The position numbers and the translations under genes are program-made. DNA of 64,000 nt, taken from positions 186,001 to 250,000 of the forward strand of contig JAIXUH010000007.1 of NCBI GenBank assembly GCA_027484145.1, written 5' to 3'. The notes beneath the pieces were generated by a model. The model ran no database searches and was not told where the DNA came from. It saw only the letters and a list, made by a program, of their open reading frames with translations. This document shows positions 44,587-61,717 of the stretch, in pieces. Every line of letters begins with the position of its first letter. The stretch's first letter is position 1. The stretch comes from Rhodobacter sp. (GTDB lineage: Bacteria; Pseudomonadota; Alphaproteobacteria; Rhodobacterales; Rhodobacteraceae).

Positions 44587-47500
44587 TCAGGCATCAACGC
44601 CCGACCGCCCCGCCCGCATCGCCCTGCGCCGCGCCATCGCATCGGCCCGCGCATCGGCCTGCGTGGCGATTGCGGGTTGGAACGGCTGCGGCGCGGTCGC
44701 GGTGATGGCAGGCTTGGGCCGGTCATCCAGATGCGCGGCCAGCGCCTGCAGCGTGGGAAAGCGGAAGATATCGGTGATCGACAGTTTCGTCGCGCCAAGG
44801 CGTTCGCGGATCTCGCGGTGCGCCTGAACGGCCAGCAAGGAATGGCCGCCCAGCGCAAAGAAGTTGTCCTTTGCGCCCACCTTCGGCACGCCCAAAACCC
44901 GCGCCCAGATGGCGGCAATCTGCGATTCCACATCCGATTCCGGGGCCACGAACACCGCAGGCTCGGCCACCGTGGCCGATGGCGCGGGCAGGGCCTTGCG
45001 GTCCACCTTGCGGTTCGGCGTCAGGGGGAAGTGATCCAGCGCCACGAAATGCGACGGAACCATATGCTCGGGCAGCGCCGCAGCGAGTTCGGCCCGCAAC
45101 CCCGCCTCATGCGCCGTGCCGGTGACATAGGCCACCAGTCGCACATCACCGGGGCTGTCCTCGCGCGCCAGCACGACCGCTTGGCGCACGCAGGGTTGCG
45201 CCTCAAGCACAGCCTCGATCTCGCCCAACTCTATCCGGTAGCCGCGCAGTTTGACCTGATGGTCGGTGCGGCCAAGGAAATCGACCTTGCCATCGGCGCG
45301 GCGGCGCACAAGATCGCCCGTCCGATACATCCGCGCACCCCATGGCGTGGCACGGTCTTGCGTCACGAAAGGATCGGCCTTGAACCGGTCCTCGGTCAGG
45401 TCAGGGCGCTGCCAATAGCCGCGCGTCACGCCATCGCCGCCAATCCACAACTCGCCCGGCGTGCCCACCGGCACCGGGTTCATCGCCTCATCCAGCACGT
45501 AAAGCTGCTGATTGGCCAAGGGCGTGCCGATGTTGCTGACTGGCTCTGCCACACCAACCTCTTCGACCGACGACCAGATCGTGGTTTCCGTCGGGCCATA
45601 CATGTTCAGGATGCGCGCTGAACTGGCGCGCCGCAGATCGGCCACCAGCGCACCCGGCAAGGCCTCGCCCCCCACCATGATCGTGCGAACCCCCGCCAGC
45701 GCGTGGCGCGACTCGTCGTTCATCGCGATCATCCGCGCCATCGATGGCGTGCATTGCAGATGCGTCACCTCATGCCGGATCAGTTGTGCGGCAATCGACC
45801 AGTCGTCCGCAGCAACCCCGCCGCCCGCATTGGCGCGCTTGACCACCTCGGCCAGCGGATACAGCCCCTCCATCACCTGTTCCGGCGCGATGCCATAGTC
45901 GATCAGGCAGGCCACCTCGCCCACGCCGATCCGCTTGAGTTGTTCCACCCGCGCAATCGCATCATCCACCGTACCAAACAGGCCCGACTCCTCGAAATAT
46001 CGCTGGAAGGCAAAGTCGAGGATGCCTTCCAGTTCGTCCGGGCTCAGCGTCTGAATGTCGATGTCCATCGGCTTTGCCACGCCCTGCGGCTTTTTGAACG
46101 CCGGAAAGGCCCAAGCATATTGCTTGATCAGGGCGGCGGCCGAGCGCAGGTAATCCTTCATCGGGCCGCGTGCGACTTCGCGCGCATGGTCGCGGTCACG
46201 CGCGATAAAGGTGTGCAGCATCAAGGTCACGGTGTGGTTGGCCGGATCATGCCCCGCCGCACGCAAGGCTGCGTGATAGAGTTTGATCTTGTCGGCCACC
46301 TCATCGACCGATTGGCCCAGAAGATGGGTCAGCACATTTGCGCCCAGCGCGCCCGCTTCCTTCCATGTCTCGGGGTTGCCGGCGGTGGTGACCCACAGTG
46401 GCAGTTCCTTTGACACAGGCCGCGGCTGGCTGTGCACGGTGAATGTGCCGCCATTGGCAGTGGGAAACTCCACCCCCTCACCGCGCCACAGGCGGCGCAC
46501 CTGATCCGCTGCCGCGAACATCGCGGCCTTGTTGGCGGGAGGCGCGTTTTCCGGGCGCAGCACGAAATCATCCGGGTGCCAGCCGCTGGCAATCGCAATC
46601 GCGGCGCGCCCGTTTGTCAGGTTGTCGATCACCGCCCATTCTTCGGCAATCCGCGCCGGATGGTGCAAGGGCACCACGCAAGACCCCGCCCGCACGCCGA
46701 TGTTCTTGGTCACCGCTGCCACGGCAGCGCCAGTCACCGAGGGGTTCGGGTAAGGCCCGCCAAAGGCGTGGAAGTGCCGCTCGGGCGTCCATACGGCGAC
46801 GAACCCATGGCTGTCGGCAAACTTGGCCCCTTCCAGCAGCAGCTCATACTTCTTCGGCCCCGCCCCATCATCATTGCCCCAGTAATACAGCGAGAAATCC
46901 ATCTTCCGCGCGCTGGTGATGCGCCCCGAAGAGACCAGCGCCCGGTTCTCATCCGACGAAATGACGATCTTGAACCCGCGTGCCAGCGTCCAGAACAACT
47001 CCAGCACAGAAATGTCGAAGGACAACGAGGTGACGGCCAGCCATGTGCCCGGCTGCGGACCAATGCGCTGATCCATCCCGGTGAAGAAGTTGATGACGTT
47101 GCGGTGTTCCACCATCACGCCCTTGGGCCGCCCGGTCGATCCGCTGGTATAGATCATATAGGCCAGATCCGCGGGGGTGGCCCCCGACACAGGGTTCGCG
47201 TCAGAGGCCGCGCCAAGACGGCCATCGTTGTCAAGGCACAGCGTCGCCACGGTGTTCGGCAGCCCCGCCGCCAGATCAAGCTGCGTCACGATCACCGGGC
47301 AGGCGCTGTCCTCGATGTAAAGCGCGGTGCGGTCGGCCGGATAGGCCGGGTCCATCGGCACATAGGCCCCGCCCGCCTTATGAATGGCCAAGGCCCCCAC
47401 CAGCATGTCAAGGCTGCGGCGGATGTGCAGGCCCACCAGCGTGCCGGGGCGCACGCCCATGGCGATCAAAACATGCGCCGCCCGGTTGGCGCGGGCGTTC

Positions 47501-49161
47501 AGTTGGGCATAGCTCAGCGTCGTGCCTTCAAAGCTGACGGCGGGCGCATCGGGCGTGCGGGCCACCTGCGCCTCGAACGCGTGGTGCACGCACAGGTCAT
47601 GGCGCGGTGCCAGCGTCTGGTTCGCGTCATGCAAGGCCGCCCGCGCCTCATCCGGGTTCAGCGTGGCGGCATCGGCGGGGCTGGCATCGGCAGGCAGCGC
47701 ATCGAGTGCCCGCACGACAAAGGCAATCCGGTTGGCAAGGGCTTGCGCCGCCTCCAGCGGCAGGCGCGACAGATCGGCGTGCAGCGCATTGGCCGACAGC
47801 GTGATCACGGTGCCCGGGATCGCCGCCCTTGTGGCTGACAGGCCCACCTGCGGTGTGGGCAGCGCGGCAAGGGCCACGTCGCGAGTCATCAGGTCCAGCG
47901 GAAAGGCCGGGGTGGCGCGCCCCTCGGCCAGTGCCGCATCCAACGCGGCCACGGCCTTCGCCATAGGCGGCGTCGCATCGGCGCGCAGCGGTACCCACGC
48001 GCTGTTGTAACCGGGCAGGCCGGGGCCAGTGCTGAAGGCAAGGTCCCCAGCGCCTTGCCCGCTGATCCGCGCGGCGGCCAGCGCCAGCAGCGCCAGTGCG
48101 CGCCCTTTGTCCATCGCAGGCAAGGCCAGAGGTAGCGTGGCCCACTCTGCCGCGCCATCGCCCTGAACCGGGACCAGCGCCAAGGGCTGCATTGCCCCCA
48201 GACGGCGGCGCAAACGGCCATCGGCAGGCGCAAGCGCGGCAAGGGCTGCGGTCAGCGCATCAGCATCACTCAGGGCAGGCAGCACGTCATCGGAAATGCT
48301 TGCCGGGCTGACCGGCAGGCCCTTGACCTGACAGGTCAGACGGTTGAGCCGCACCGCACCCGTGGCGCAGGCGACCACCAGCCCTTCATCCGACACCGAC
48401 AGCACCGCGCCCGGCGCGCCCGCACCGGCGGCAACCTCGGCGCTGCCCACGTTCAGCACGCCCTTCCCTGTAGCGATCTTGGCCGTTGTCAGCGGGTTCC
48501 AGTAACGCCCATGATCCAGCGCCCGCACCATCCGCGCGACCGCTTCGGCGCTATCACTGAAGTCCAGCCGCCCAAAGGCACGCGGGCGGTCGGCACGCAA
48601 ATACAGGCTGCGGCGCGACAGATCCTGCGGCACCGGGCGCAAGCCGGTTTCCAACTGCCCCATCAACGCGGGGAAACTGTCCAGCGCCGCCTCATAGGCC
48701 TTGGTGTTCAGCGTCAGCGCCGTGTCGGTGGCGGCAATGTCGAACATGCGCTGTTCCAGCACATCGCCCTCATCCACCCCGCCGCGGATCAGGTGCCACG
48801 AGATTCCATGCCGCACCTCGCCGTTCAACAGCGCCCAAACCGGGGCATTCAACCCGGCATAGGCGGGCAAGGGGCCATCGTGAAAGTTCACCGCCCCCTT
48901 GTCGGCCAAGGCCAATACCGCCGCCGGAATGACCGTCAGGTTCGCCACCGACAACAGCCAATCCACCCGCATCCCAGCCAGACGCAAGGCAAGGTCGGCC
49001 CCCGGCACCTCGACCCGCAGGCCGCGCGCCATCGCCCAGTCGCCCACCGCCGCATTCCGGGTTGCAACGGCAGCCACCGCATGACCCCGCGCCAGCCACA
49101 GATCAACGCAGTGTTGCGTCAGGGATTCATTGCCGATGAACAGGGCGGTGTGACGGGTCAT
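44587..49161 (-). CDS. NRPS: formyltransferase - truncated C-like - A domain with inserted luciferase-like monooxygenase - carrier protein
   Basis: 1524 residues. (1) 1-250: formyltransferase of the methionyl-tRNA formyltransferase type, with N92, H94 (VNFHDGPLPAYAGLN) and D130 (GGVDEGD). (2) about 320-505: looks like the C-terminal half of a condensation domain; HHxxxDG is absent. (3) adenylation domain from about 520: A3 YTSGSTGRPKG (671-681), A4 LSFDISVLELF (713-723). Directly after A4, residues about 740-1110 are an FMN-dependent luciferase-like monooxygenase of the MupA/Atu3671 family (DFSLYYWGNDDG, ERHFHAFGG, IASGWHPDDFV). The A domain resumes with MYGPTETTIWSS, YRTGDLVRR and NRKVDRKALP (catalytic K1385). 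(4) carrier protein DNFFALGGHSLLA (S1441 phosphopantetheinylated). It would activate an amino acid, oxygenate and possibly formylate it. Last gene of the PKS operon. Confidence 0.93.
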   Translation of the reverse strand: MTRHTALFIGNESLTQHCVDLWLARGHAVAAVATRNAAVGDWAMARGLRVEVPGADLALRLAGMRVDWLLSVANLTVIPAAVLALADKGAVNFHDGPLPAYAGLNAPVWALLNGEVRHGISWHLIRGGVDEGDVLEQRMFDIAATDTALTLNTKAYEAALDSFPALMGQLETGLRPVPQDLSRRSLYLRADRPRAFGRLDFSDSAEAVARMVRALDHGRYWNPLTTAKIATGKGVLNVGSAEVAAGAGAPGAVLSVSDEGLVVACATGAVRLNRLTCQVKGLPVSPASISDDVLPALSDADALTAALAALAPADGRLRRRLGAMQPLALVPVQGDGAAEWATLPLALPAMDKGRALALLALAAARISGQGAGDLAFSTGPGLPGYNSAWVPLRADATPPMAKAVAALDAALAEGRATPAFPLDLMTRDVALAALPTPQVGLSATRAAIPGTVITLSANALHADLSRLPLEAAQALANRIAFVVRALDALPADASPADAATLNPDEARAALHDANQTLAPRHDLCVHHAFEAQVARTPDAPAVSFEGTTLSYAQLNARANRAAHVLIAMGVRPGTLVGLHIRRSLDMLVGALAIHKAGGAYVPMDPAYPADRTALYIEDSACPVIVTQLDLAAGLPNTVATLCLDNDGRLGAASDANPVSGATPADLAYMIYTSGSTGRPKGVMVEHRNVINFFTGMDQRIGPQPGTWLAVTSLSFDISVLELFWTLARGFKIVISSDENRALVSSGRITSARKMDFSLYYWGNDDGAGPKKYELLLEGAKFADSHGFVAVWTPERHFHAFGGPYPNPSVTGAAVAAVTKNIGVRAGSCVVPLHHPARIAEEWAVIDNLTNGRAAIAIASGWHPDDFVLRPENAPPANKAAMFAAADQVRRLWRGEGVEFPTANGGTFTVHSQPRPVSKELPLWVTTAGNPETWKEAGALGANVLTHLLGQSVDEVADKIKLYHAALRAAGHDPANHTVTLMLHTFIARDRDHAREVARGPMKDYLRSAAALIKQYAWAFPAFKKPQGVAKPMDIDIQTLSPDELEGILDFAFQRYFEESGLFGTVDDAIARVEQLKRIGVGEVACLIDYGIAPEQVMEGLYPLAEVVKRANAGGGVAADDWSIAAQLIRHEVTHLQCTPSMARMIAMNDESRHALAGVRTIMVGGEALPGALVADLRRASSARILNMYGPTETTIWSSVEEVGVAEPVSNIGTPLANQQLYVLDEAMNPVPVGTPGELWIGGDGVTRGYWQRPDLTEDRFKADPFVTQDRATPWGARMYRTGDLVRRRADGKVDFLGRTDHQVKLRGYRIELGEIEAVLEAQPCVRQAVVLAREDSPGDVRLVAYVTGTAHEAGLRAELAAALPEHMVPSHFVALDHFPLTPNRKVDRKALPAPSATVAEPAVFVAPESDVESQIAAIWARVLGVPKVGAKDNFFALGGHSLLAVQAHREIRERLGATKLSITDIFRFPTLQALAAHLDDRPKPAITATAPQPFQPAIATQADARADAMARRRAMRAGRSGVDA

Positions 49162-49180
49162 CTTCTTCTCCTTCCCGCGG

Positions 49181-50182
49181 TCAGCGGGCGGGTTTGGGGT
49201 TGACCGCACGGTCGGCGCGCGGCCAAAGCGACCGCACCGCCGAAGCAAGGGCATGCGCGGCCATGTCAGTCAGATAATGCGGCGGGTCGATGAAATCCTT
49301 GCGCTGGATCAAGGCCCTGATCCGCCAGATCACCCCGCCCGCCAGATGGGCCAGCGTGGCCGCAGCGGCATAGCCCGGCCCCCGCGTCTTGGTGTAGAAA
49401 TAGAGCCGCGAGTCGAGCCAAAAGCGCGGAATGCGCTCCCATGTCTTCATGCCGGTCGAAACCGAGCCAATATGCGCCACGCGGCTTTCCACCACATAAT
49501 CCGTGGGCCAGCCCGCACGCGCGGCCCGCAGGCACAGCTCGGTTTCCTCGAAATACAAAAAGAACCGCTCGTCAAACAAGCCGATCCGGTCCAGCACCGA
49601 TTGGCGCATCATCAGGCTGGCCCCTGCCAACCAATCCACCCGTTGCGTCGTCACAGGCAAGGGCGGCGCGACGATTGCCTTGCGCAACAACCGGCTGACC
49701 GGGCCGAACCGCGCCGCCTGCTCCAACTCGCCAGCGATAGAGGGGAAGCGAAAGGCGGTATGGTGCGGATCGCCCTCGGGGCCGTGAATATGGCTTCCGG
49801 CAAAACCGGTGGCGGGGTGGCTTTCCAGATGCACCAGAAGCGCACGAATGGCATCAGGCGCGGGGAAGGCATCCGAGTTCAGGATATAGGCATAGTCGGG
49901 CTTGGCCCCCCCCGGCAGGCCCGCCCGAATACCCACGTTGTTGCCCGCGCCAAAGCCGCCGTTGCGCCCCGACTGGATCACCCGCACCCGGTGCGGCCCC
50001 ACATCCCAGCCGCGCGACACCACGGCGGCAGAAAGCACCTCGAAACTGCCGTCGCCCGAGTCATTGTCGACGATGGTCAGCGCGCCGTCGATGCCGTCCA
50101 TGGCGATCAGCGCTGCCTCGGCCGCGCGCAAGGTCATCTCGGCCGTGCGCCAGTTCAGGATCACCGTCAGCACCGTTGCCAT
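49181..50182 (-). CDS. Glycosyltransferase family 2 (rhamnosyltransferase-like)
   Basis: 333 residues. GT-A fold with VLTVILNWRTAEMTLRA at the start, IVDNDSGDGS, NGGFGAGNNVGIRAG, ILNSDAFPAPDAI (metal-binding N-S-D in place of DXD) and WLAGASLMMRQSVLDRIGLFDERFFLYFEETELCLR (acceptor region), which are typical of WcaA/RfbF-like enzymes that add rhamnose or similar sugars. It sits two bases after the PKS stop and 19 bases before the NRPS start, so it belongs to the same transcript as the assembly-line genes. It is likely to glycosylate the PKS/NRPS product or a lipid-linked repeat unit. Confidence 0.9.
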   Translation of the reverse strand: MATVLTVILNWRTAEMTLRAAEAALIAMDGIDGALTIVDNDSGDGSFEVLSAAVVSRGWDVGPHRVRVIQSGRNGGFGAGNNVGIRAGLPGGAKPDYAYILNSDAFPAPDAIRALLVHLESHPATGFAGSHIHGPEGDPHHTAFRFPSIAGELEQAARFGPVSRLLRKAIVAPPLPVTTQRVDWLAGASLMMRQSVLDRIGLFDERFFLYFEETELCLRAARAGWPTDYVVESRVAHIGSVSTGMKTWERIPRFWLDSRLYFYTKTRGPGYAAAATLAHLAGGVIWRIRALIQRKDFIDPPHYLTDMAAHALASAVRSLWPRADRAVNPKPAR

Positions 50183-50184
50183 GG

Positions 50185-53100
50185 CTATTCCGCCGCCGTG
50201 GCAAGGGGTTGCGGTTCCGGTGCCGCCTCGGCCGCCGCGACAAAGCGCTTCATCTGCGCCGCCAGAACGCGGACATTCGGCTCCAACACCATGCTGTCAT
50301 GATCCCCCGGTACCTCGATCACCTGCAAGGCGGGGGCAAAGCGTGTCAGGTCGTTGTCGGGGAACACGAACTCGCGCGCGGCACTGACCCAGCGCCCCCC
50401 CGTCACCTGCCAGCAAAGGTCCAGCGGCGGGCGGAACAGTACCGTGGCCCCCGTGCGCGGCTGCATGTCATAGCGCGGCAAGGCGCTGCGGAATGCGGCC
50501 TCGATGGCGGCGTTGTTGAATTGCGCCGCATCAACCTGCCCTGCCCCTTCGCGCAACGTCGCCTTGTACGCCTGCTTGTCACGCCACCAGCGCGCCACAA
50601 AGGCCGGGCCGCCTTCGCGCAGTTCCGCCATGCGGATCATCAACTTGTCCAGCTTTGACAGCGTGGGCCGCATCGGAATAGGCGTATCCAGCAACACCAC
50701 CAGCGGCACAGCCTCGCCCGCCGCTTCCAGTTGCCGGGCAATTTCCCACGCGATCAGCCCGCCGCCCGAGAAGCCGCCCAACAGATAGGGGCCGTGCGGC
50801 TGCACTTGCCGCATTTCGGCAATGTAATCCCGCGCCGCATCGACAAAACTGTCGTGCGGGGCGGCGTCGCCATAAAGGCCGCGGGCCTGCAACCCATAGA
50901 ACGGGCGATCCCCGCCCAAAAGCTGCGCCAGATGGCGCAGGTTCAGCACATTGCCGAACATCCCCGCGACAAGGAAGAACGGCGTCCGCGCGCCCCCCTC
51001 GCCCCGGTGCATCGGCACGATATGGGTAAAGCGCCGCTGCGGCGCGCGCGGGGCGGCATCGGGCTTGGCCACTTCATCCGGCAGGCCGATCTGGTCGATG
51101 ATCAGCGCGGCACAGGCGGCCACCGTCGGCGCCTCGAACAGGATCGAGATCGGGAAATCAACGCGATACGCCTTTTTCACCATGGCAAACAGGCGCACGG
51201 CAATCAGGCTGTGGCCGCCAAGGTCAAAGAAACTGTCCTCGACCCCCACCTTGCCCACGCCCAGCAGGTCCTGCCAGAACCCGGTCAGCGTGCGTTCCAC
51301 ATCATTGCGCGGTTCCACATATTCGCTGTCCAGATCGGGGCGTTCAAAGCTGGTGCCTTCGGCCTTGGACTCAAGGCTGGCCGCCGTCTGGCGCACCAGC
51401 GCGGGCAGGTCCAATGACGACACGATGATCTGCGACAGCCCCATTCCGGCGGCACGGGCAAAGGCTGCCGCCCCTTCTTCCGGCCGGATCCCCTGGCTGA
51501 ACGCATGCATCAGCCGTTCTTCGGCAGGCGACATCGGCTTGGCCGCCACATCGTCAAACACAAGGCTGCGCGGGTCGGGCGCGCTCAGCATCAGCCCGCC
51601 TTCCAGCCGGTGCATGGTAAAGCCGCTGACCTCGATACAGACCTCACCCTCGGGCGTGGCAAGGGTTACGTCAAAACTGGCGGTCGTGCGTGTGGCACTG
51701 ACAGGCCCCGCCAGCCGTACATGGCTGACAATGCGCGCGGGCAAGGGGCGGTAGACGCGCAGCCGGGCATAGGACACCGGCACCCAAAGATGCGTCGGCT
51801 GATAGCCCGCGATCAGGTCCATCGCCCAGCCCGTCGCAAGGTCCATCAGCGCCGGGTGGATCAGCCATTCCCCCGCTTCGGCCGCAAAGGGCGCGGGCAG
51901 GTGCAGCGCCGCCAACCCCTCGCCCGACCCCGTCGTGCGGCTGCCGAGCACACGCCAGCGCGGACCAAAGGCCAGATGCGCCTCTTGCGGGCTTTCCAAT
52001 CCCTCGCCCACCTCGGGCGCAGGCAGGCGTGCGGCAATTGCCGCAGGGTCAATACGCGGGGCCACGGCCTGCAAGGGCAGCAGGCGGGCGGTGGCATGCT
52101 GCAGCCACCCCGTGCGCCCCTTGACCACATGCGCCGATTGCAGGTCAAAGCCGTAACCTTCGTCGCTGCGCGTCAGGCGGGCGCGGATCGGGCGCGCAGC
52201 GCCATCATCCACATCCAGCGCACGAAAGAACGTCAGATCGCGAATCTCGAACGACGTGCCTTCGCCCATGGCCTGCATCGCCTCGGCCATCACCTCCAGA
52301 TAGCCGGTGCCGGGCACCAGCGCCTGTCCGGCCTTGGTGCGGTGGCCATCCAGAACCCAGCGGTCGGTGCCATACTGCGCCGTGAAGATACGGTTGCCCG
52401 CCTTGTCAAACCCGGCCTCATCCAGCAGGGCTGCGCGGATCGGCAGGCGCGGCGCCTCGGGGCGACCCGTCCGGTCAGCCAAAGCTTCGGCGGCCATGCC
52501 CACGCCTTGCCAGATGCCCCAGTTCAGCGCGATCACCCGCGTCTTGCCGCCCGCGCGATGCTTGGCATAGGCGTTGAGGTATTCGTTGGCGGCCACATAG
52601 TCGATCTGCCCCGCCGGCCCCGTCACCGTGGAGGTGGACGAAAACAGCACCAGCAGCGCAAGCGTGCCATCGGGGAACAACCGTTCCAACACCTGCGTAC
52701 CGTGCAGCTTTGGCGCGAAAACCTCTTCCACCTCGGCGGGGGATTTGGTCAGGATCGGGCCGTCATCCACCACACCGGCGGCATGGATCACCGCATGAAC
52801 CGGGCCAAAGCGCGCCTCGCCCGCCCGCTTTGCTGCCTCCATCTCGACCACATTCGCCACATCGGCCTGCGCCACCAGCACCTCGGCCCCCAAAGCCTCC
52901 AGCCGCTGCAGGGCAAGGATGCGCCGGGCCATCGGGTCATCCGGGCCCGAACCCGCCACAAGCTGCGCCCATTTCGCCCGGTCTGGCAGCGCACGCCGGG
53001 CAATCAGCGTGATACGCACAGCAAAGCGGCGGATCAGATCCTCGGCCACTGTCAGGCCGATGCCGCCAAAGCCGCCGGTGATCAGCACATGCGCGCCCTG

Positions 53101-56100
53101 CGGCAGCGTCAGCGCCGCATCCGGCAGGCGCGCGGGTTTCAGCCCGGCCTCATAACGCCGCGCGCCGCGCAGCGCGGCCAGCACCGGGGAGGCTGACAGC
53201 AATTCCTCAATCACCGCCGTGGCCTCCGGGGCCTTGCCTGGGGCCGGAATATCCAACAGCCCCACCGTCACCCCCGGAAATTCGCGCGCAATCACGCGGG
53301 CGGGGCCAAGCACCATCGCCTTTTCCGGATAGGGCAACGCCTCGTCCCGCACCTGCGCGGCCCCGGTTGTGACCACACTGATGTGGATCGGTCGCGGCAG
53401 GTTTTCCTCGGCCATCGCCTGCGCCAGAAACATCAGGGAATAGAACCCCTGTTCAATGTTGCGGTGCAGGAAGCTGGAGCCGGGGCGGAAGGTTTCCCGC
53501 GCCGTCACCAGCCAGAAATGCGCGATCCGGTTCGGGGCCTGCCCATGGGCCACCAGATCACGGATCAGCGCGTCATACCCTTCGCGCCCGCGTTCGGGCG
53601 ACAGGACATACTGCCCCCGGTCATCGCGCGCGAAACTGTCGCCCGCGCGCACGATTGTCACCCGGTGCCCGGCGCGGGCCAGCACATCGGCCGCCGCCTG
53701 CCCCACACCGGCGTCATCCACAAAGATCAGCCAGTTCTGCGCCGCTGCATCGGCCAGATCGTCGATCTCCTGCCCGGCGGCCACCGTGCGCCAATGCGGC
53801 TTCCATCCCCAATCGGCCAGATCGGCGGCCCGTGCGGGCAGCGCCTCGGCCTCGGCCTGCGCATGGGTGCCGGGGGCGATGAAATAGGGTTTGCGCTGAA
53901 AGGCATAGGTCGGCAGCGGCACGCGGTTGCGCCGCGCCTCGCCCCAGATCGGTTCCCAATCCACCGGCACGCCGCAGGCCCAAAGCCGCGCGATCGTCGC
54001 CATATGCCACGCATCATCGGCCATGGCCTGTTCCGGATGGCGCAGCGCCGCGATCACCTGCCCCGACGCCACACCATTGGCCTGCGCCAGCGACGACAGC
54101 GCCCGCCCCGGCCCCATCTCCAGATAGACGCGCCCCGGCACCGCCATCAGCGTTTCCATGCAGGTCTTGAAATCGACCGTGCCGCGCAGATGGGCCACCC
54201 AGTATTCAGGATCAGTCGCCTGTGCCGCCGTCAGTTCTTGCCCGGTGCGGTTCGAAAGGATGGGCACGCGCGGCGCATGCAGGGGAATCGAGCGCAGATA
54301 ATCACCAAACCGCGACAGGATCGGCGCCAGCATCCGCGAATGGGCCGCGATGTCGATGGCGATGCGGGTGGTCTCGACGTCTGAACTGGAAAGCCACAGC
54401 GCGAAACGATCGAGCAGATCATCAGGGCCGGACACGACGCAAAGCTTGGGCGCATTGACCGACGCCAGATCAAGCTGTGCAGTCGGATCGGGGGCCAGCC
54501 CCCGAGCCCCCGGGATATTTTCGGACAGAAAATGGTTGAAACGGTCAAGGTCGGCGCGCAGATCGGCCTCGGCCATCGGCACCGACAGCATGCCGCCGGG
54601 GGGGATCGTATCGAACAACTGGCCGCGCAAGTGGACAAGGCCAATGCAATCCTCAAAACTCATCACCCCGGCCAAGGCGGCGGCAGTGTTTTCGCCCATC
54701 GAATGGCCGACAAAGGCGGTGGGTTTGACGCCCCAGCTTTGGAACAGCATGGCCAGCGCATATTCCGTGATCATGATCAGCGGCAATTGCACCGACGGCT
54801 TTTTCAGCGTGGCGTTTGCGGCAGCCTCGGCCCCCGGTTCGGGCAGCCACAGGGCACGGATATTATAGTCAAGCTTTGGTTCCAGCACGGCGAGGCCACG
54901 GTCCATCCAATCGGCAAAGACGGGTTCAGTCTCATAAAGGTCGCGCGCCATGCCGGCATATTGCGCGCCCCCGCCGGGGAACATGAACACCACCTCGGGG
55001 TCGTCACCCAGCCAGTCGTGCGTGAATACCCGGCGGCTGTCGGCGCCTTCCAGCAGGCGCGCGGCCTCGTCATGGCTGGCGGCCACCAGAACACGGCGCT
55101 TTTCAAACGCACGGCGGCCGTGTTTCAGCGCCCAGGCGATATCGGGCAGGGGATCATCGGTCTGGCGCAGATGGGCGGCAAGCCGGGCACTGGCCCCATC
55201 CAGCGCAGCCTTGGACCTGGCTGAGAGCACGATGGGCTGAAATGGCCAGTCGCTTTGCCCCGACTCGGCCCGCATCGGCGCCTCTTCCAACACGGCATGG
55301 GCATTGGTGCCACCTACGCCCAGCGAGTTGACCCCGGCGCGCCGGGGGGTATCGCTGACCCAGTCGGTCAGCCGGTCGTTGACCCGAAAGGGGCTGCTGT
55401 CGAAATCGATGGCGGGGTTCGGCGCCTCATAGCCCAGGCTGGGGGGCAGTTGGCGATGGTGCAGCGACAGCGCCACCTTGATCAGGCTGGCCACGCCCGC
55501 CGCCGTATCCAGATGGCCGATGTTGGTTTTCACGCTGCCAATCCGGCAGGTTCCCACCGCATCGGTGGTGTCGCGGAAGGCCGCCGTCAGGGCCGCCACC
55601 TCGATCGGGTCACCCAAATAGGTGCCGGTGCCATGGCATTCCACATAGCTCACGCTGTCGGCGGTCACACCCGCCATCGCTTGCGCCTCGGCAATGCAGC
55701 GGGCCTGCCCATCGACCGACGGGGCGAGATACCCCGCCTTGGCCGCGCCGTCGTTGTTGACGGCAGAGCCCTTGATGATCGCCCAGATATGGTCGCCGTC
55801 GCGGATCGCATCGCGCAACCGCCGCAGCACCACGCAGCCCGCGCCCGAGCCAAACACCGTGCCTTGCGCGCGGTGGTCAAAGGCATGGCAATGGCCATCG
55901 GGCGACAAAATCTCGCCTTCGGTGAACAGATAGCCCCGCGCATGCGGCAACTCGATGGTCACCCCACCGGCCAGCGCCATGTCACATTCGCCATTCAGCA
56001 GCGCCTGAGTGGCATAATGCACGGCCACCAGCGAGGTGGAACATGCCGTCTGCACGTTGATGCTGGGGCCTTTCAGATCAAAGATATGGCTGGCGCGGGT

Positions 56101-56631
56101 GGCCAGAAAATCCTTGTCATTGCCGGTATGGCGCAACAGGAACATGCCCGTCTGTTCCACCAGATCCGGGTTGGAACAGAGGTTGAAGTAGAAATAGCTG
56201 CCCATCCCGCAGCCCGCCCAGACGCCGATCTGGCCCGCGAACCCCTCGGGCGGGTGGCCCGCGTTTTCCAGCGCCTCCCATGCCACCTCAAGGAACTGGC
56301 GGTGCTGCGGGTCAAGAATGGCCGCCTCTTTCGGCGAAAAGCCAAAGAAATCGGCGTCGAACTGTTCGAACCCGTCCAGCACGGCAGCGGCAGGCACGTA
56401 ATTCGCCCGCGCCATCCGCGCCGGGGATTCGCCTGCTGCCAAAAGCTCGGCCTCGGTCAGCACGCGGATCGATTCCACACCGCCCTTGAGGTTGTTCCAA
56501 TAGGCCGCAATGTCACCCGCGCCCGGCAAATGCGCAGCCATCCCGACAATCGCGATGTCGGTTTCCGAGGCATCCTCGGGCAAAAGGGGTGCGGACCGGT
56601 CAGAGCGCGACATGGGGGCGGAACTTTGCAA
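50185..56631 (-). CDS. Type I polyketide synthase, KS-AT-KR-DH-ACP-TE
   Basis: 2148 residues. KS 22-450 with C197 (VQTACSTSL), H333 (ECHGTGTYLGD) and H373 (KTNIGHLDTAAG). AT about 545-865 with S644 in GHSMG. A structural segment 930-1170, then KR with LITGGFGGIGL (about 1183) and the S-Y-N triad ending Y1345, N1349 (IDYVAANEYLN). DH-type hot-dog domain about 1415-1680 with H1430 in HRTKAGQALVPG and D1597. ACP about 1775-1845 with S1808 (FFDLGGHSLIA). Thioesterase about 1880-2130 with S1955 in GGFSGGG and H2111. KR precedes DH, the reverse of the usual order. No ER or methyltransferase. The product would be one reduced extension unit; starter unknown. First assembly-line gene after the GT4 gene, 63 bases downstream. 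An in-frame ATG 18 bases further in is also possible. Confidence 0.93.
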   Translation of the reverse strand: MQSSAPMSRSDRSAPLLPEDASETDIAIVGMAAHLPGAGDIAAYWNNLKGGVESIRVLTEAELLAAGESPARMARANYVPAAAVLDGFEQFDADFFGFSPKEAAILDPQHRQFLEVAWEALENAGHPPEGFAGQIGVWAGCGMGSYFYFNLCSNPDLVEQTGMFLLRHTGNDKDFLATRASHIFDLKGPSINVQTACSTSLVAVHYATQALLNGECDMALAGGVTIELPHARGYLFTEGEILSPDGHCHAFDHRAQGTVFGSGAGCVVLRRLRDAIRDGDHIWAIIKGSAVNNDGAAKAGYLAPSVDGQARCIAEAQAMAGVTADSVSYVECHGTGTYLGDPIEVAALTAAFRDTTDAVGTCRIGSVKTNIGHLDTAAGVASLIKVALSLHHRQLPPSLGYEAPNPAIDFDSSPFRVNDRLTDWVSDTPRRAGVNSLGVGGTNAHAVLEEAPMRAESGQSDWPFQPIVLSARSKAALDGASARLAAHLRQTDDPLPDIAWALKHGRRAFEKRRVLVAASHDEAARLLEGADSRRVFTHDWLGDDPEVVFMFPGGGAQYAGMARDLYETEPVFADWMDRGLAVLEPKLDYNIRALWLPEPGAEAAANATLKKPSVQLPLIMITEYALAMLFQSWGVKPTAFVGHSMGENTAAALAGVMSFEDCIGLVHLRGQLFDTIPPGGMLSVPMAEADLRADLDRFNHFLSENIPGARGLAPDPTAQLDLASVNAPKLCVVSGPDDLLDRFALWLSSSDVETTRIAIDIAAHSRMLAPILSRFGDYLRSIPLHAPRVPILSNRTGQELTAAQATDPEYWVAHLRGTVDFKTCMETLMAVPGRVYLEMGPGRALSSLAQANGVASGQVIAALRHPEQAMADDAWHMATIARLWACGVPVDWEPIWGEARRNRVPLPTYAFQRKPYFIAPGTHAQAEAEALPARAADLADWGWKPHWRTVAAGQEIDDLADAAAQNWLIFVDDAGVGQAAADVLARAGHRVTIVRAGDSFARDDRGQYVLSPERGREGYDALIRDLVAHGQAPNRIAHFWLVTARETFRPGSSFLHRNIEQGFYSLMFLAQAMAEENLPRPIHISVVTTGAAQVRDEALPYPEKAMVLGPARVIAREFPGVTVGLLDIPAPGKAPEATAVIEELLSASPVLAALRGARRYEAGLKPARLPDAALTLPQGAHVLITGGFGGIGLTVAEDLIRRFAVRITLIARRALPDRAKWAQLVAGSGPDDPMARRILALQRLEALGAEVLVAQADVANVVEMEAAKRAGEARFGPVHAVIHAAGVVDDGPILTKSPAEVEEVFAPKLHGTQVLERLFPDGTLALLVLFSSTSTVTGPAGQIDYVAANEYLNAYAKHRAGGKTRVIALNWGIWQGVGMAAEALADRTGRPEAPRLPIRAALLDEAGFDKAGNRIFTAQYGTDRWVLDGHRTKAGQALVPGTGYLEVMAEAMQAMGEGTSFEIRDLTFFRALDVDDGAARPIRARLTRSDEGYGFDLQSAHVVKGRTGWLQHATARLLPLQAVAPRIDPAAIAARLPAPEVGEGLESPQEAHLAFGPRWRVLGSRTTGSGEGLAALHLPAPFAAEAGEWLIHPALMDLATGWAMDLIAGYQPTHLWVPVSYARLRVYRPLPARIVSHVRLAGPVSATRTTASFDVTLATPEGEVCIEVSGFTMHRLEGGLMLSAPDPRSLVFDDVAAKPMSPAEERLMHAFSQGIRPEEGAAAFARAAGMGLSQIIVSSLDLPALVRQTAASLESKAEGTSFERPDLDSEYVEPRNDVERTLTGFWQDLLGVGKVGVEDSFFDLGGHSLIAVRLFAMVKKAYRVDFPISILFEAPTVAACAALIIDQIGLPDEVAKPDAAPRAPQRRFTHIVPMHRGEGGARTPFFLVAGMFGNVLNLRHLAQLLGGDRPFYGLQARGLYGDAAPHDSFVDAARDYIAEMRQVQPHGPYLLGGFSGGGLIAWEIARQLEAAGEAVPLVVLLDTPIPMRPTLSKLDKLMIRMAELREGGPAFVARWWRDKQAYKATLREGAGQVDAAQFNNAAIEAAFRSALPRYDMQPRTGATVLFRPPLDLCWQVTGGRWVSAAREFVFPDNDLTRFAPALQVIEVPGDHDSMVLEPNVRVLAAQMKRFVAAAEAAPEPQPLATAAE

Positions 56632-56694
56632 GCAGGGGCATCCTTTTGGCTACTTACCAAACTTGACGAAAATAAGGAATGAACGCCGGGGTGA

Positions 56695-58026
56695 TCACGC
56701 CGCGCGCGAGGCACCTTGGGCGGTCGATACGCCAAAGAAGTCGGGCTTTTTCGTGGTTCTGCCCAAGACCCAGTCATAGACTGCGGCAATTTGCTCGGCC
56801 TTGCGCGCCCATGTGAACAGCGCCTCGACCCTCAGGCGGGCGGCATCGCCCTTGGCCGCAACTTCGGCCGGGTGGTCCACCGCATGCTCCAACGCGGCGC
56901 GCAGGCCCGCAATCACCGCACCGCGCGGGCCGATGGGCACCTTGAAGCCGGTCGTGTCTGTCACCAACTCGGCCGGGCCGGCATAATCGATAACCATGGG
57001 GCACAGGCCCAGCGCCATCGCCTCCAGCACCACCCCGCCGCCGAATTCGCGGATCGACGGAAAGGTCAACATGGTGCAGCCAGCGGCAATATCCTGCACC
57101 GCCTCATGCTTTTGCCAGCCGTGAAAGCGCACGGCCCCGCCCAAGGTGGATGCCTGCGCCTGCAAGGCGGGGCGCACCGGGCCATCACCGATGATATCCA
57201 GCGTAATGCGGCCCTGTGCCAGCAGGGGGCCTGCCGCCTCGATCAGCATGTCCACGCCTTTCAGTGGCACCAGACGCCCGATGAAACAGGCGCGCAGCGG
57301 CCCGCCCGCAACCGCAGGGCCATGGTCTGCGCGGCGCCAAAACCGGGCGGGGTCAATGGCATTTTCCGGCAGATAGACGCAGCGAGCCAGATGCTGGTCG
57401 GGAATATCGGCCAGCGTTTGCCGCGCCCCCACCAGAATGGCATCGGCGCGCAAGGTGGCACGGCGCGCGGGCAACAGCCGATAAAGCCCCCGCAGACGCG
57501 ACAGCCATTCGTTTTCCTGCCGCATCTCGGCCTCGAACCCCTTCGGCCATGGCACGCCACCATTGATCGGGCCCAGCACGAAAGGCACGCCCGCCCGGCG
57601 GCATTTGGCGGCAATCGGGCTTTGCTGCACCGGCGACAGCGGTGTGATGCGGTGCACCAGATCATACTCCCCTGCCCGGATCGCCGCGCCAAACTTTTTC
57701 CAGACCTGATGTTCGAACCACGGATAGGCGATGGTGTTCACCGCTTGCTGGATGGTCCAGCCGCGCCCTTCGCCGCCGCCCAGAAGGCTTCCCAGTTTCC
57801 ACAGCGGGCGGGCCACGGCTTCGGAATCAATCGCCGTGAAATCGCGCCCCTCGACCATGCCCGCACGCAAAAAGGCCTCGCGGTTGCGGATCTGTGTCAC
57901 CACATGCACATCGGCCACCCCCGCCAGCGCCCGCGCCATCGACCAGCCCACCAGTGGCACCGAAACCCATTCGGGGTTCGCAGCCTCGGCCATGATCAGA
58001 ACGCGCGTGCGGCGGGTGTCAGTCAC
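56695..58026 (-). CDS. Glycosyltransferase family 4
   Basis: 443 residues with a GT-B fold. The C-terminal donor domain has CFIGRLVPLKGVDMLIEA, DIIGDGPVR and the E-x7-E motif in SIREFGGGVVLEAMALG. The N-terminal half begins TDTRRTRVLIMAEAANPEW and has YDLVHRITPLSPVQQSPIA. It is probably a retaining enzyme using a nucleotide sugar. A GTG start is chosen: it overlaps the stop of the upstream ligase gene by four bases (GTGA) and has AAAGGA upstream. It is followed 63 bases later by the PKS gene on the same strand. Confidence 0.92.
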   Translation of the reverse strand: MTDTRRTRVLIMAEAANPEWVSVPLVGWSMARALAGVADVHVVTQIRNREAFLRAGMVEGRDFTAIDSEAVARPLWKLGSLLGGGEGRGWTIQQAVNTIAYPWFEHQVWKKFGAAIRAGEYDLVHRITPLSPVQQSPIAAKCRRAGVPFVLGPINGGVPWPKGFEAEMRQENEWLSRLRGLYRLLPARRATLRADAILVGARQTLADIPDQHLARCVYLPENAIDPARFWRRADHGPAVAGGPLRACFIGRLVPLKGVDMLIEAAGPLLAQGRITLDIIGDGPVRPALQAQASTLGGAVRFHGWQKHEAVQDIAAGCTMLTFPSIREFGGGVVLEAMALGLCPMVIDYAGPAELVTDTTGFKVPIGPRGAVIAGLRAALEHAVDHPAEVAAKGDAARLRVEALFTWARKAEQIAAVYDWVLGRTTKKPDFFGVSTAQGASRAA

Positions 58027-59480
58027 AAAATGGTCCTTTGCGGTTTGTATTGCCGGGCAAAGGCGGCCTGCAATGCCGTGCGCCGGTCGCGGGCCAAAGC
58101 CTCGGCATGGCCCATCACCGCCCCCGCCATCAACCATGTAAAGGGAATCAGCGTGTCATTGGGCAGCAAGTCAAACAGGTTCGCCGCCAAAATCAGCGTG
58201 ACCGCACAGGCGAAGGGCGACAGAGCCGCCGCGGGTTGGCGCAACGCCTCGCGCCCCATCAGGAACACCGGCAGCGCCAGCAGCCCGAATTCGCCCACAT
58301 AGCCAACCCAGCCCGCCGTGCCCAGCGCGATGATCCAGCCACCGTCGGCAATGATGTTGATCTGCCCCGTCACCGGATCATGCAGCAGACTGCGCCCATA
58401 GCCGCCCCAGCCAAACCATGGCCGCTCTTCCGCCCGGGCCAGCAGCAATTCCTCGTTGCGAATGCGGAATTCCAGCGACAGGCCCCGTTCGGCATTCAGG
58501 TCTGACGCAAAGCGCAGGATATCGTCCAGCGGCACCACATGAAGGCCACGCAGCAGCGGATAGGTCACCACAACGGTCACCATCGCCACCGCCAGCAAAA
58601 GCTGGATGCGGCGCGGCAGGATCAGAACCGCCGGGGCCAGCAGCATCGCATAAACGATCGGCCCGGCACTGCGGCAAAACATCAGGACCACCGCCAGATA
58701 GGCCGCCACCAGCAAGAACCGCGGCCGCACCATGGCCGGCCCCACCCGCAACAGCGTGATCGCGGCAATCAGGCACATCATGCCAAAGAACGCGACCCAC
58801 AGCCCATGCGGCATGAACACAAAGGGGCGAAAGCCGCCAAAGCGGATGGCCTGCGAAAAATCATGCTGGAAGAAGCCGTAAACCTTGAGGTTCAGTTGCG
58901 GCGAGATGCGCGATTCCAGCAGCATCGGCAGGGAATAGATCAGCCCCGCCAGCACCAGCGCCACGATGATGGCCCGCATTCCCTCGGCAGTGGCCAGATA
59001 CTTGCGCGCCATGAAGAACGGCAACAGCACGATGAACTGGTTCGCCACCTCGGCCAGTGAATCGTAAATGCGCGTGCCCGGCAGCATGGACTGCTCAAAC
59101 ACGATCGGGTCATCGTTCAGCAGCACCGTGCCGAAGGGCCCCAGCACATAAAGCACGATCAACGCCCGCCCCAGCGGCGCATCGGGCCACAGGCTGAAGC
59201 GGTCCTTCAGCAAGAACACCACCGCCGCCGCCGCGGCCAGATTGGCAATCGTGTATTTGTTGAAATCGGGCACCATCGGCAGATCAATCGCAATCACCGG
59301 CGGCAAAAGCATATAGGCCCCCAGCACCGTCCAGATCAGCGCGCGTGCCGGATCAAGCTTCGTGAAGAATATCCACGCAACCACAGGCCAGACAGCCAGC
59401 ATAAGATAGGCAAATGTGTTGGCGATGGGCATCAGCTTTGGGGTTTCGGCTCGGTTTTCCGGATCGGGGCCTTTGGGCAT
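58023..59480 (-). CDS. O-antigen ligase/polymerase-like membrane protein
   Basis: 485 residues with about 11-12 hydrophobic segments and one larger periplasmic loop near residues 330-400 (LRFASDLNAERGLSLEFRIRNEELLLARAEERP, here the RxxxE-type Wzy_C region, followed by WFGWGGYGRS). This pattern fits the O-antigen ligase/Wzy family, which joins or polymerises undecaprenyl-linked glycans on the periplasmic side. First gene of the minus-strand operon; it overlaps the GT4 gene by four bases. The start is unclear: the ATG used begins MPKGPDPENR, and a second ATG 48 bases further in (MPIANTFAYL) is equally plausible. Whether it is ligase or polymerase cannot be told. Confidence 0.82.
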   Translation of the reverse strand: MPKGPDPENRAETPKLMPIANTFAYLMLAVWPVVAWIFFTKLDPARALIWTVLGAYMLLPPVIAIDLPMVPDFNKYTIANLAAAAAVVFLLKDRFSLWPDAPLGRALIVLYVLGPFGTVLLNDDPIVFEQSMLPGTRIYDSLAEVANQFIVLLPFFMARKYLATAEGMRAIIVALVLAGLIYSLPMLLESRISPQLNLKVYGFFQHDFSQAIRFGGFRPFVFMPHGLWVAFFGMMCLIAAITLLRVGPAMVRPRFLLVAAYLAVVLMFCRSAGPIVYAMLLAPAVLILPRRIQLLLAVAMVTVVVTYPLLRGLHVVPLDDILRFASDLNAERGLSLEFRIRNEELLLARAEERPWFGWGGYGRSLLHDPVTGQINIIADGGWIIALGTAGWVGYVGEFGLLALPVFLMGREALRQPAAALSPFACAVTLILAANLFDLLPNDTLIPFTWLMAGAVMGHAEALARDRRTALQAAFARQYKPQRTIL

Positions 59481-59643
59481 ACCATGGTTCTGCCCCAATG
59501 TCGTGGCATGCCAAAGCGACTCTGCCATGCCGGAAAGGTGGCAGCACCATGGCGAACGGCAGGCCAGCCCCAAGGGGGCGGCTTTTCGCGTCGCCCTTGG
59601 GCGCGGCCATGCTATCACGCGGCACACCAAACCCGAGGCTGCC
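59481..59643. promoter_or_regulatory. Divergent promoter region of the glycan/assembly-line locus
   Basis: About 160 bases between the minus-strand five-gene operon and the plus-strand WecG-like gene. It must carry both promoters. No regulator site was recognised. Confidence 0.4.
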
Positions 59644-60399
59644 TTGCACTTCCGCTTTCCAGATCAGACCATCACCGTGAACGTGCCCAACCGCGCCAGC
59701 CTGCTGGATCAGGTGCGCGCGCGTTTCCGCGCCGGGCAGGGCTTTGCCTTGGCCACCCTCAACCTGGACCATCTGGTAAAGCTGCAACGCTCGCCCAGTT
59801 ATCGCGCCGCCTATGCCGCGCAGGATCTGGTGGTGGCCGATGGCAACCCCATCGTCTGGCTGTCGCGTCTGGCAAGGCAGCAAGTGTCGCTGGTCACCGG
59901 GTCTGACCTGTTGCGCCCGATGCTGGCGCTTGCCGCAGACGAAGGCATGCCCGTCGGCTTTTTCGGCTCATCCCCCGATGTGCTGGACGCGGCCGCAGAC
60001 CGCCTGCGCGCGGCCTATCCGGCGTTGAACGTGGTCTGGTCGCAGTCGCCTGCCATGGGGTTCGAGCCGGATGGCGCCGCCGCGCGCCAAGCCATCGCCG
60101 CCATGCGGCAGGCGGGCGTGCGGCTATGCATCCTGTCGCTGTCCGCCCCCCGGCAAGAGGTCTTTGCCGCCTTTGCCCGCCACCTTGCGCCCGAGATCGG
60201 CTTTTGCGGCTTTGGCGCGGGGTTGGATTTCGTGGCCGGGCGTCAGGTGCGCGCCCCTCGTTGGGTGCAGGTGCTGGCGCTGGAATGGCTGTGGCGCGCG
60301 CTGTCGGCCCCGCGCCGCCTGATCCCGCGCTATGCGGCCTGCGCCGCCATCCTGCCCGGTCAGGCATGGGCGGCGCTGCGTCAGCGCGGCAATCCCTGA
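59644..60399 (+). CDS. WecG/TagA/CpsF-family glycosyltransferase (GT26)
   Basis: 251 residues. Residues line up with the TagA family: ALATLNLDHLVKL with T38, DLVVADGNPIVWLSRL with D66, FFGSSPDVLDAAADRLR, LSLSAPRQEVFAA and GFCGFGAGLDFVAGRQVRAPRWVQ. These enzymes add N-acetylmannosaminuronic acid, N-acetylmannosamine or another sugar to undecaprenyl-linked acceptors at the membrane, through the Arg-rich C-terminal tail seen here (LWRALSAPRRLIPRYA). A TTG start is used because GAGG lies five bases upstream and the family begins HFRF; upstream in-frame ATGs have no homology. It converges with the next GT2 gene with no gap. Confidence 0.9.
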   Translation: MHFRFPDQTITVNVPNRASLLDQVRARFRAGQGFALATLNLDHLVKLQRSPSYRAAYAAQDLVVADGNPIVWLSRLARQQVSLVTGSDLLRPMLALAADEGMPVGFFGSSPDVLDAAADRLRAAYPALNVVWSQSPAMGFEPDGAAARQAIAAMRQAGVRLCILSLSAPRQEVFAAFARHLAPEIGFCGFGAGLDFVAGRQVRAPRWVQVLALEWLWRALSAPRRLIPRYAACAAILPGQAWAALRQRGNP

Positions 60400-61386
60400 T
60401 CACTTGTATTCGATCAGACCGCGCCGCCGCCCGCGCCAACGCGCCAGCCAATAGGCCATCACCCCGCGCCCCTCGGCCAGTTTGGCAAGCGTTGTGAACC
60501 CGGCCCAGACCCAGGCGTTGCGGCCAAAGCCATCGCGCCGCGCCAACCTGACCACCTGTGCCGGATAGGCCAGCAGCAGCACGAGCATCCCCGGATGCGC
60601 CAAGGCGCCCAAGACCGCCACCCCCGGCAGAACCACCCCCCACAGCACCGCGCGCCGTGTCTCGGCCACCCAATGCCGCTCGGGCGCCGCCCCATGCAGG
60701 GCCGCCCCTTCGGCAAAGGCATGGCCCGCCCGCACCGAGCGCCGCCACCACTGGCCAAAGCGCGTCATCGCGGCATCATGCAGGGTCATCTCGGCATCAA
60801 TCCGCCAGACCTGCCCCCCTGCCTGCCGCAACCGCACACATAACTCCGGCTCTTCGCCCGCGATCAGATCGTCGCGATAGCCGCCCACCGCCATCAGCGC
60901 CTCATACCGCATCAGCGCATCGCCGCCACAGGCACGGGCACGGCCCACCGGCGTGTTCCACTCCCGGTCCGCCAGCGCGTTATAGATCGATGCCTCGGGA
61001 AACCGCTCGCGCCGCCGCCCGCAGACCACCACCGCTTCCGGATGCACGTCAAATGCAGCAACCGCCGCCGCCAGCCACCCCGCCGCCATGCTGCAATCAC
61101 CGTCCAGCAATTGCACAAACGCAGGCGGGTCACCCTGCAACACTGCCAGCCCTTCGTTGCGGGCCCGCGCCGCCGTGAACGGGCGCGACAGGTCCAGTTG
61201 CACCACCTGCGCCCCCGCCGCCGCCGCAGCCTGCACAGACCCGTCGGTAGAGCCACTGTCGACATAGACGATCCGCCGCACCTGCCCCGCCAGCGATTGC
61301 AGACAAGCGACCAGACGCGCGCCTTCATTGCGCCCGATCACCACGGCATCTATGATGGCAAGGGGCTGGGCCACGGGTTGGGGCAA
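60400..61386 (-). CDS. Glycosyltransferase family 2
   Basis: 328 residues. GT-A signature: AVVIGRNEGARLVACLQS, IVYVDSGSTDGSV, FTAARARNEGLAVL, FVQLLDGDCSM (DXD-like DGD) and GGYRDDLIAGEEPELCVRLR as acceptor/base region. Two hydrophobic segments follow near residues 245-285 (VVLPGVAVLGALAHPGMLVLLL), so it is membrane bound. It starts at TTG with no strong ribosome site; a GTG 12 bases further in is an alternative. It lies between the WecG-like gene (convergent) and the CpsD-like gene (divergent), within the glycan locus. Confidence 0.88.
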   Translation of the reverse strand: MPQPVAQPLAIIDAVVIGRNEGARLVACLQSLAGQVRRIVYVDSGSTDGSVQAAAAAGAQVVQLDLSRPFTAARARNEGLAVLQGDPPAFVQLLDGDCSMAAGWLAAAVAAFDVHPEAVVVCGRRRERFPEASIYNALADREWNTPVGRARACGGDALMRYEALMAVGGYRDDLIAGEEPELCVRLRQAGGQVWRIDAEMTLHDAAMTRFGQWWRRSVRAGHAFAEGAALHGAAPERHWVAETRRAVLWGVVLPGVAVLGALAHPGMLVLLLAYPAQVVRLARRDGFGRNAWVWAGFTTLAKLAEGRGVMAYWLARWRGRRRGLIEYK

Positions 61387-61717
61387 GCGCAGATATCCGG
61401 ATGAATGGGCGTCAGGTCATGCAAGCTGGGCCACAGGCGCGCTCACACCGCCAAAGGCTAGCGCCACGCCCATCCAAACGCCAGTCAGGATACATCCATT
61501 GGCACGGGCCTCAGCCTTCCATTTCCGATGCTTATCTGATATTTGTGGCAACAACTGGGCGGGGGCCCGGCGATTCCGGCAAGATCATGGCCAGCTTGTG
61601 CAACAGCATTTGCCCCTTGTATCTGACGGATGACCCTGGGTCGCGGCCTGCTGCATTGCGGGTGAAGTGAAACCTTTTGCAGCTTTGCGGCTGCGCTGTG
61701 CAGGAGCGTTCGGCCCC
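61387..61717. other. Divergent intergenic region between GT2 and CpsD-like genes
   Basis: 331 bases that must hold the promoters of the GT2 gene (left) and of the CpsD-Wzz pair (right). An in-frame extension of the kinase gene back to a GTG at 61667 is possible. No other gene, repeat or hairpin was seen. Confidence 0.45.

Follow-up and report, generated by a model that had tools for sequence, protein, structure and literature searches.

Exopolysaccharide loci of the Wzx/Wzy type, for example the eps locus of Myxococcus, are one kind of system with which the genes described here can be compared. These genes lie on a 64,000-nucleotide stretch of DNA from Rhodobacter sp. (assembly GCA_027484145.1, contig JAIXUH010000007.1, positions 186,001 to 250,000), which was analyzed as a whole, is called the window below, and forms part of contig C3 of a 4.97-Mb genome. 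They encode a non-ribosomal peptide synthetase (NRPS) and a type I polyketide synthase (PKS), which are separated by a family 2 glycosyltransferase (GT2a) and surrounded by polysaccharide genes. Type I PKS genes are known from capsular polysaccharide clusters in the form of wcbR and rkpA, as described in part of PMC3908369. Modules composed of a formyltransferase, a glycine adenylation (A) domain and a peptidyl carrier protein (PCP) are proposed, in the portion of PMC4504003 that deals with them, to make N-formylglycyl-S-PCP for extension by a PKS, as with CongA in conglobatin biosynthesis and in the oxazolomycin system. According to passages of PMC11342130, monooxygenase (MOX) domains located within glycine A domains place a hydroxyl on the alpha carbon, and the N-C bond may then break to give carrier-bound glyoxylate; one passage of PMC12283262 speaks of beta-hydroxylation by MOX, and we follow the C-alpha version. 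For puwainaphycins, a section of PMC4219810 attributes the 2-hydroxy group to the PuwE monooxygenase domain.

The window resembles each of these systems in part. Its NRPS combines a formyltransferase, a glycine A domain and a carrier in what looks like a loading module of the CongA, OzmO and LgrA type, feeding a PKS; relative to the conglobatin and oxazolomycin systems, however, it adds half of a condensation (C) domain, a monooxygenase, a PKS of a single module and a location in a polysaccharide cluster. It shares with the myxothiazol, melithiazol and crz-like modules a luciferase-like monooxygenase in a glycine A domain of near-identical specificity code (passages of PMC11342130 and PMC12283262), although MOX-bearing modules of this kind have a full upstream C domain that delivers an acyl chain, which the window module does not. 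In addition, the myxothiazol, melithiazol and crz-like modules are described in those passages as breaking the N-C bond and releasing glyoxylate through a terminating thioesterase (TE) domain, whereas the window module would start a chain after N-formylation. With wcbR and rkpA the window has in common a type I PKS within a polysaccharide biosynthesis and export cluster; the part of PMC3908369 that treats these genes does not mention an NRPS with formyltransferase and monooxygenase. Finally, the window resembles Myxococcus eps in its sugar transferase, several glycosyltransferases, Wzz/CpsD genes, ligase-like polymerase and EpsH-like GT4, but has assembly-line genes in mid-cluster, and its scores for EpsH, EpsA and EpsD all fall under the cut-offs. 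PKSs in capsule clusters, formylglycine loading, MOX-glycine modules and Wzx/Wzy loci are already known. We found no description, among titles and abstract openings of open PMC papers, of a hybrid NRPS-PKS in polysaccharide clusters, nor of the fusion of a formyltransferase to a half-C domain, the pairing of this fusion with MOX, or a constant GT2 of this sort in a polysaccharide locus.

On balance, we consider it probable that the PKS, GT2a and NRPS form a dedicated line for a small acyl group that becomes a covalent part of a Wzx/Wzy-type exopolysaccharide. The observations that carry this proposal are the domain content of the proteins, their conserved catalytic residues and the conserved linkage of their genes to polysaccharide genes. 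The group itself, which would derive from N-formylglycine and malonate, is a prediction, in which each chemical step is read from domain families and the substrate from the specificity code; the order of reactions, the structure, the attachment and the part played by GT2a are likewise predicted. Gene starts were picked by conservation and ribosome-binding site, and domains were assigned with Pfam and NCBIfam. The three genes are as follows.

44587..49161, minus strand: NRPS initiation module, 1524 amino acids (aa), identified from Pfam, NCBIfam, an AlphaFold model with fold searches, hhalign and the specificity code
49181..50182, minus strand: GT2a, family 2 glycosyltransferase between PKS and NRPS (Pfam Glyco_tranf_2_3, 7.7e-11)
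50185..56613, minus strand: type I PKS of one module, KS-AT-KR-DH-ACP-TE, 2142 aa (Pfam; catalytic residues kept)

Scanning named genomes yielded 278 related loci; the 80 with the best scores, and hence close relatives, were kept. All three genes are present in 78 of these 80 loci, which is more than expected by chance, and stand in the order PKS-GT2a-NRPS in 77; the exceptions are L014, in which the genes are re-ordered, L076, which is without GT2a, and L055, a contig of 4 kb from which the PKS is missing. GT2a is found by tblastn in 79/80 loci. The flanking genes fall into three main layouts, each with polysaccharide genes. At least one further glycan gene is present on 75/80 loci, the remaining five being contigs of 4-19 kb, and a phosphopantetheinyl transferase (PPTase) gene on 67/80, although the glycan hidden Markov models (HMMs) were built from the related loci and both counts therefore score their own training set. 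When 81 loci were clustered, no family besides NRPS, PKS, GT2a and PPTase occurred in more than 42, the ligase-like gene being present in 42/81. An earlier reading of the window (the original prediction) had asked whether a ligase-like gene, a GT4, the PKS, the GT2 and the NRPS stay together as five; the unit that is conserved is PKS-GT2-NRPS, mostly with a PPTase, and the adjoining GT4 and ligase-like genes vary.

Two recurrent neighbors of the unit were also observed. A family of GHSL-motif proteins, SGNH-like on visual inspection and candidate acyl-handling enzymes, recurs in 30/80 loci (L035 24108-25049, L087 24897-25835, L042 17060-19626 and others); some have a lipoprotein-like signal, the two members scanned gave no Pfam match and the best match in 100 kb around the window reached only 37 bits. 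Hydrogenophaga loci carry a further NRPS beside the unit (L087 18913-24855, with similar genes by clustering in L035, L038 and L043); that of L087 is 1981 aa long and comprises two each of AMP-binding and carrier domains, plus a C domain and a TE domain.

The NRPS-type formyltransferase was sought in 295 genomes from 294 genera of the family to which the window belongs, taken from named relatives to be Rhodobacteraceae, its own genome included. It is found in 105/295, a figure obtained by subtracting, from 148 matching genomes, the 43 whose best E exceeds 1e-30 (about 4e-17 or weaker); a wide gap from 6.6e-36 to 3.9e-17 sets the type apart from the matches that follow, most of which are short frames the size of Fmt. 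Scored with the HMMs built from the related loci, 19/20 family loci, chosen non-randomly from the 105 for long contigs, have five or more glycan genes in 40 kb, whereas control regions of the same genomes, at hand-picked offsets within the same contigs, gave 0/20 with five glycan genes and 1/20 with one (Fisher p 3e-10). The 80-locus and 20-locus sets are not independent, since G285 repeats L076 (an identical row) and G034 is close to L049. The latter (CP059262.1) is titled Exiguobacterium profundum, a Bacillota name, and is clearly a rhodobacteral locus; it is probably a mislabelled metagenome-assembled genome (MAG). The same linkage is seen in annotated plasmid records of Ruegeria, Paracoccus and Aminobacter, and an unannotated Rhizobium plasmid record has three glycan HMM matches (four of 28 matching records were examined). 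Beyond the family sample, the type occurs in 15/398 phylum genomes (10 of them family members) and 10/385 class genomes (5 family members). Nine non-family genomes matched: G549, G440, G590, G322 and G983 entered the glycan count and the tree, with five glycan matches each, some weak, in G549 and G440, and G488, G886, G900 and G951, with weaker matches (28-39% to the NRPS) and mostly short contigs, were left out of both. The suggestion that the PKS and NRPS are tied to glycan machinery, made at first for one operon, thus gains a conserved neighborhood in many loci; the view that the combination is unusual does not stand, the formyltransferase type being far from rare in the family. A Ruegeria conchae cluster (L101 18-5104) adjoins a VPLPA-CTERM exosortase gene, XrtD, together with the rhamnose genes rfbC, rfbB, rfbD and rfbA.

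The NRPS starts at an ATG preceded by AAGGAG and contains, in order, a formyltransferase of the Fmt/ArnA type, the C-terminal half of a condensation domain, an A domain with a glycine code and an inserted luciferase-like monooxygenase, and a PCP; the formyltransferase and the monooxygenase, recognized with Pfam and NCBIfam, are additions to the gene list drawn up before. There is no match to PF00668 at E 0.01 in Pfam, and neither a full C domain nor a TE domain is present. The middle region aligns only to C-domain residues 183-443 of 458 (hhalign 96.0%, E 4e-9, from one template alignment), and it is on hhalign that the half-C assignment rests, the fold-search matches of the AlphaFold model spanning residues 1-296 only. 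The monooxygenase scores 477 bits with TIGR04020 (cut-off 244) at residues 787-1137 of the longer open reading frame, between the two halves of the AMP-binding domain, and matches the solved PuwE domain (6ket, 342 bits). Support for glycine as the probable substrate of the A domain is provided by its code, DILQMGMIWK, for which glycine is predicted. It differs by one residue from DILQLGMIWK, the code common to four published MOX-bearing glycine domains in the passage of PMC12283262 that lists them, and 16 of 107 orthologues carry exactly DILQLGMIWK. Moreover, the catalytic N, H and D of the formyltransferase are present in the window NRPS and kept in 105/107 orthologues.

For the PKS, the catalytic residues tested in KS, AT, KR (K, Y), DH (H, D) and ACP are kept in 95/95 glycan-side sequences, meaning those outside a sister branch described below, and the TE triad in 94/95. 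The KR serine taken as catalytic is conserved in at least 95% of 73 rows, the adjacent position being S in 75 and A in 20. Because the D of the KR domain is kept in 68/95 PKSs, KR stereochemistry may vary. No ER match was obtained with Pfam in the window PKS.

In the mechanism that we propose, the A domain would load glycine onto the PCP, and the formyltransferase would N-formylate it, as in linear gramicidin and conglobatin biosynthesis. The inserted monooxygenase would then hydroxylate the glycine alpha carbon, and the KS would accept the N-formyl-(hydroxy)glycyl group, or a glyoxylyl group should the N-C bond be cleaved, as happens in myxothiazol biosynthesis. In one round, the PKS would add a single malonate-type unit and, through KR and DH, reduce and dehydrate it to give a C4 acyl group that bears a 4-oxo or a 4-formamido function, the formamido form either hydroxylated or not. 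The TE domain and GT2a may transfer this group to one of the sugars in the repeat unit, and neighboring glycosyltransferases, the ligase-like polymerase, Wzz and CpsD would assemble the polymer. A bolder version, which we regard as distinctly improbable, makes the formyl group a disposable N-acyl handle: the monooxygenase would need an N-acylglycine and hydroxylate it so that it decomposes to formamide and glyoxylyl-S-PCP, as with MOX in myxothiazol biosynthesis, the PKS would make an aldehyde acyl group of the 4-oxo-crotonyl type, and the TE and GT2a would put it on the exopolysaccharide, which would thereby gain reactive cross-linking groups. If true, this would mean that assembly-line adhesive or gel chemistry exists in roughly one in three of the genera sampled from the family.

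The genes for polymer assembly follow those of the line, as listed here.

56695..58026, minus strand: GT4 glycosyltransferase, EpsH-like, not taken as an EpsH member at 475 bits against a cut-off of 800
58023..59480, minus strand: O-antigen ligase/polymerase-like membrane protein, 485 aa, without a Pfam match
59416..60399, plus strand: WecG/TagA/CpsF-family glycosyltransferase, divergent from the operon (TIGR00696, 111.5 bits, cut-off 69)
60400..61374, minus strand: GT2b glycosyltransferase (Pfam Glycos_transf_2, 5.9e-17)
61667..62653, plus strand: CpsD/BY-kinase-like ATPase (ParA/CbiA above cut-off; eps_fam 58 bits, under the cut-off of 108)
62657..63997, plus strand: Wzz-type chain-length determinant (PF02706, 39.7 bits, cut-off 25.5; TIGR03007, 103.5 bits, under cut-off)

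The five minus-strand genes at 44587-59480 are all open frames and tightly packed, as first reported, with 19 nucleotides (nt) between NRPS and GT2a, 2 nt between GT2a and PKS, 81 nt between PKS and GT4 (63 nt with the TTG at 56631 as PKS start codon) and an overlap of 4 nt between GT4 and the ligase-like gene. Family matches also bear out the adjoining WecG, GT2, CpsD and Wzz genes, with WecG on the plus strand; its start is uncertain (59416, or 59527 as the gene caller prefers), as is that of the CpsD-like gene, for which the gene caller prefers 61829. Just beyond the window lie a GT4 gene and a Bac_transf sugar transferase gene (PF02397, 191 bits, L089 2091-2795), so that an initiating sugar transferase, Wzz and CpsD occur together in this locus as in a Wzx/Wzy-type pathway. 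The ligase-like protein is a tentative candidate for Wzy. It gave no Pfam or NCBIfam match and no Protein Data Bank sequence match in a profile search, its L013 orthologue has a sub-threshold Wzy_C score (25.7 bits against a cut-off of 31.7), and a crude scan finds seven hydrophobic segments, with 4-10 over 32 aligned sequences. WecG, GT2, Wzz and CpsD together resemble the Caulobacter holdfast set; a reading as holdfast or unipolar polysaccharide was considered and set aside, no open PMC paper title listed for these polymers linking either to a PKS or NRPS.

Several observations weigh against attachment to a polymer. Linkage alone does not prove that the group is covalently attached, and the glycosyltransferases around the unit vary between loci. 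Searches for GT2a gave no match in the clusters of Aminobacter, Rhizobium, G549 and G440, nor in L076. No PPTase gene stands beside the window NRPS, the PPTase match in this genome being a 252-aa frame, probably of the Sfp type, on another contig (C36:53840). In addition, no Wzx HMM match was obtained on the 100 kb searched around the window, and genome searches with PF13440 (flippase) and PF02563 (export) gave nothing on contig C3, although an EPS-type Wzx (689 bits) is present on contig C9 and three Poly_export matches above cut-off are found elsewhere in the genome. Some lines are broken, through decay or sequencing errors: G009 and G097 have a PKS divided among several frames together with an NRPS frame that is either short or split, and L033, L043 and L049 show single splits. 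Finally, the PKS/NRPS pairs of G144, G322, G590 and G983 have no convincing glycan genes around them (one GT4b match of 58 bits is seen in G322), and the PKS is longer in two of these four loci. In a tree of 58 of the 107 orthologue NRPS sequences, these four are split from the 54 others with SH-aLRT support of 100, the only support measure used; G009 and G097, with NRPS frames under 1300 aa, were left out of the tree and of the 107. The original prediction had named, as evidence against itself, homologous pairs that lack glycan genes and make a free metabolite; these four loci fit that description in part, by their lack of convincing glycan genes. The sister branch implies that this chemistry has no inherent tie to glycans, the branch that includes the window having become tied to polysaccharide clusters. 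In G983, the glycan-free pair (L135, L136) lies a few genes past a zinc-uptake set that is Zur/Znu-like by sequence appearance, a possible metal link.

The sister branch lends some weight to the idea that the product is a free, secreted and possibly glycosylated small molecule, the polysaccharide genes being neighbors with a shared role in surface life and a separate product; the TE that terminates the PKS, with its triad kept, could release a free acid. We nevertheless think this unlikely. Polymer-assembly genes (Wzz, CpsD, ligase, sugar transferase) accompany 19/20 family loci and 0/20 controls, and the linkage persists across differing gene layouts. Moreover, there is no constant exporter or resistance gene in the 81-locus clustering, in which not every cluster is annotated, because only the NRPS, PKS, GT2a and PPTase families exceed 42 loci. 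Atu3671, which forms part of the family name, presumably comes from a siderophore cluster; a siderophore reading was dropped when the clustering gave no further constant family, receptor families not having been searched for.

A role as lipid primer or anchor of a polysaccharide has reportedly been proposed for RkpA-type PKSs, and the window PKS could make such a lipid-like product with the NRPS giving its head group, which we rate as less probable again. The idea draws on the precedent of PKS genes in capsule clusters, as described in part of PMC3908369, and on the ligase-like gene in 42/81 loci. The NRPS, however, is an initiation module, with the formyltransferase first and no full C domain, and the PKS is a single module without ER, so that only an iterating PKS would be expected to make a long saturated chain; the same cluster also has a standard Bac_transf sugar transferase gene. 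Highly improbable, lastly, is the landing of a mobile NRPS/PKS island in polysaccharide regions by opportunity, for although the unit occurs on plasmids, Comamonadaceae copies are nested among rhodobacteral ones and layouts differ, GT2a in the window sits 2 and 19 nt from PKS and NRPS, the order is kept in 77/80 loci, and 19/20 against 0/20 is not expected from chance placement.

The nesting of the Hydrogenophaga (Comamonadaceae) sequences inside the rhodobacteral tree suggests horizontal transfer. L014 (REAW01000010.1), from a Curvibacter MAG with the order GT2a-PKS-NRPS, nests with Tabrizicola, by transfer or binning error.

Returning to the proposed acyl-modified exopolysaccharide, a second NRPS of this genome (C-A-PCP-TE, 1321 aa, C9:57806-63207, equivalent to L235 5806-11207) overlaps the frame of the EPS-type Wzx. 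At E up to 1e-60, its C domain has relatives in 8/295 family genomes, its own included, and all eight are within the 105 (hypergeometric 2.2e-4). The relative in G126 stands beside the main NRPS, that in G135 beside Wzx and one of two G222 loci beside glycan-cluster genes, whereas those at G200, G038, G222 C44, G178 and G075 showed no strong glycan-HMM match in a 20-kb stretch. These data suggest that groups made by NRPSs may be a more general feature of the polymer. The genome also encodes a large modular PKS (C36:18034-45944) with nine ketosynthase matches in frames of 3005 and 7194 aa, and the PPTase match lies nearby.

If the line does furnish an acyl group for an exopolysaccharide, the polymer would carry a substituent that sugar analysis alone would miss, and a role would be provided for an orphan NRPS/PKS cluster carried by many of these genomes. 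It would also mean that, in a major group of aquatic bacteria, NRPS-PKS enzymes commonly serve the building of a secreted polysaccharide rather than of antibiotics or siderophores.

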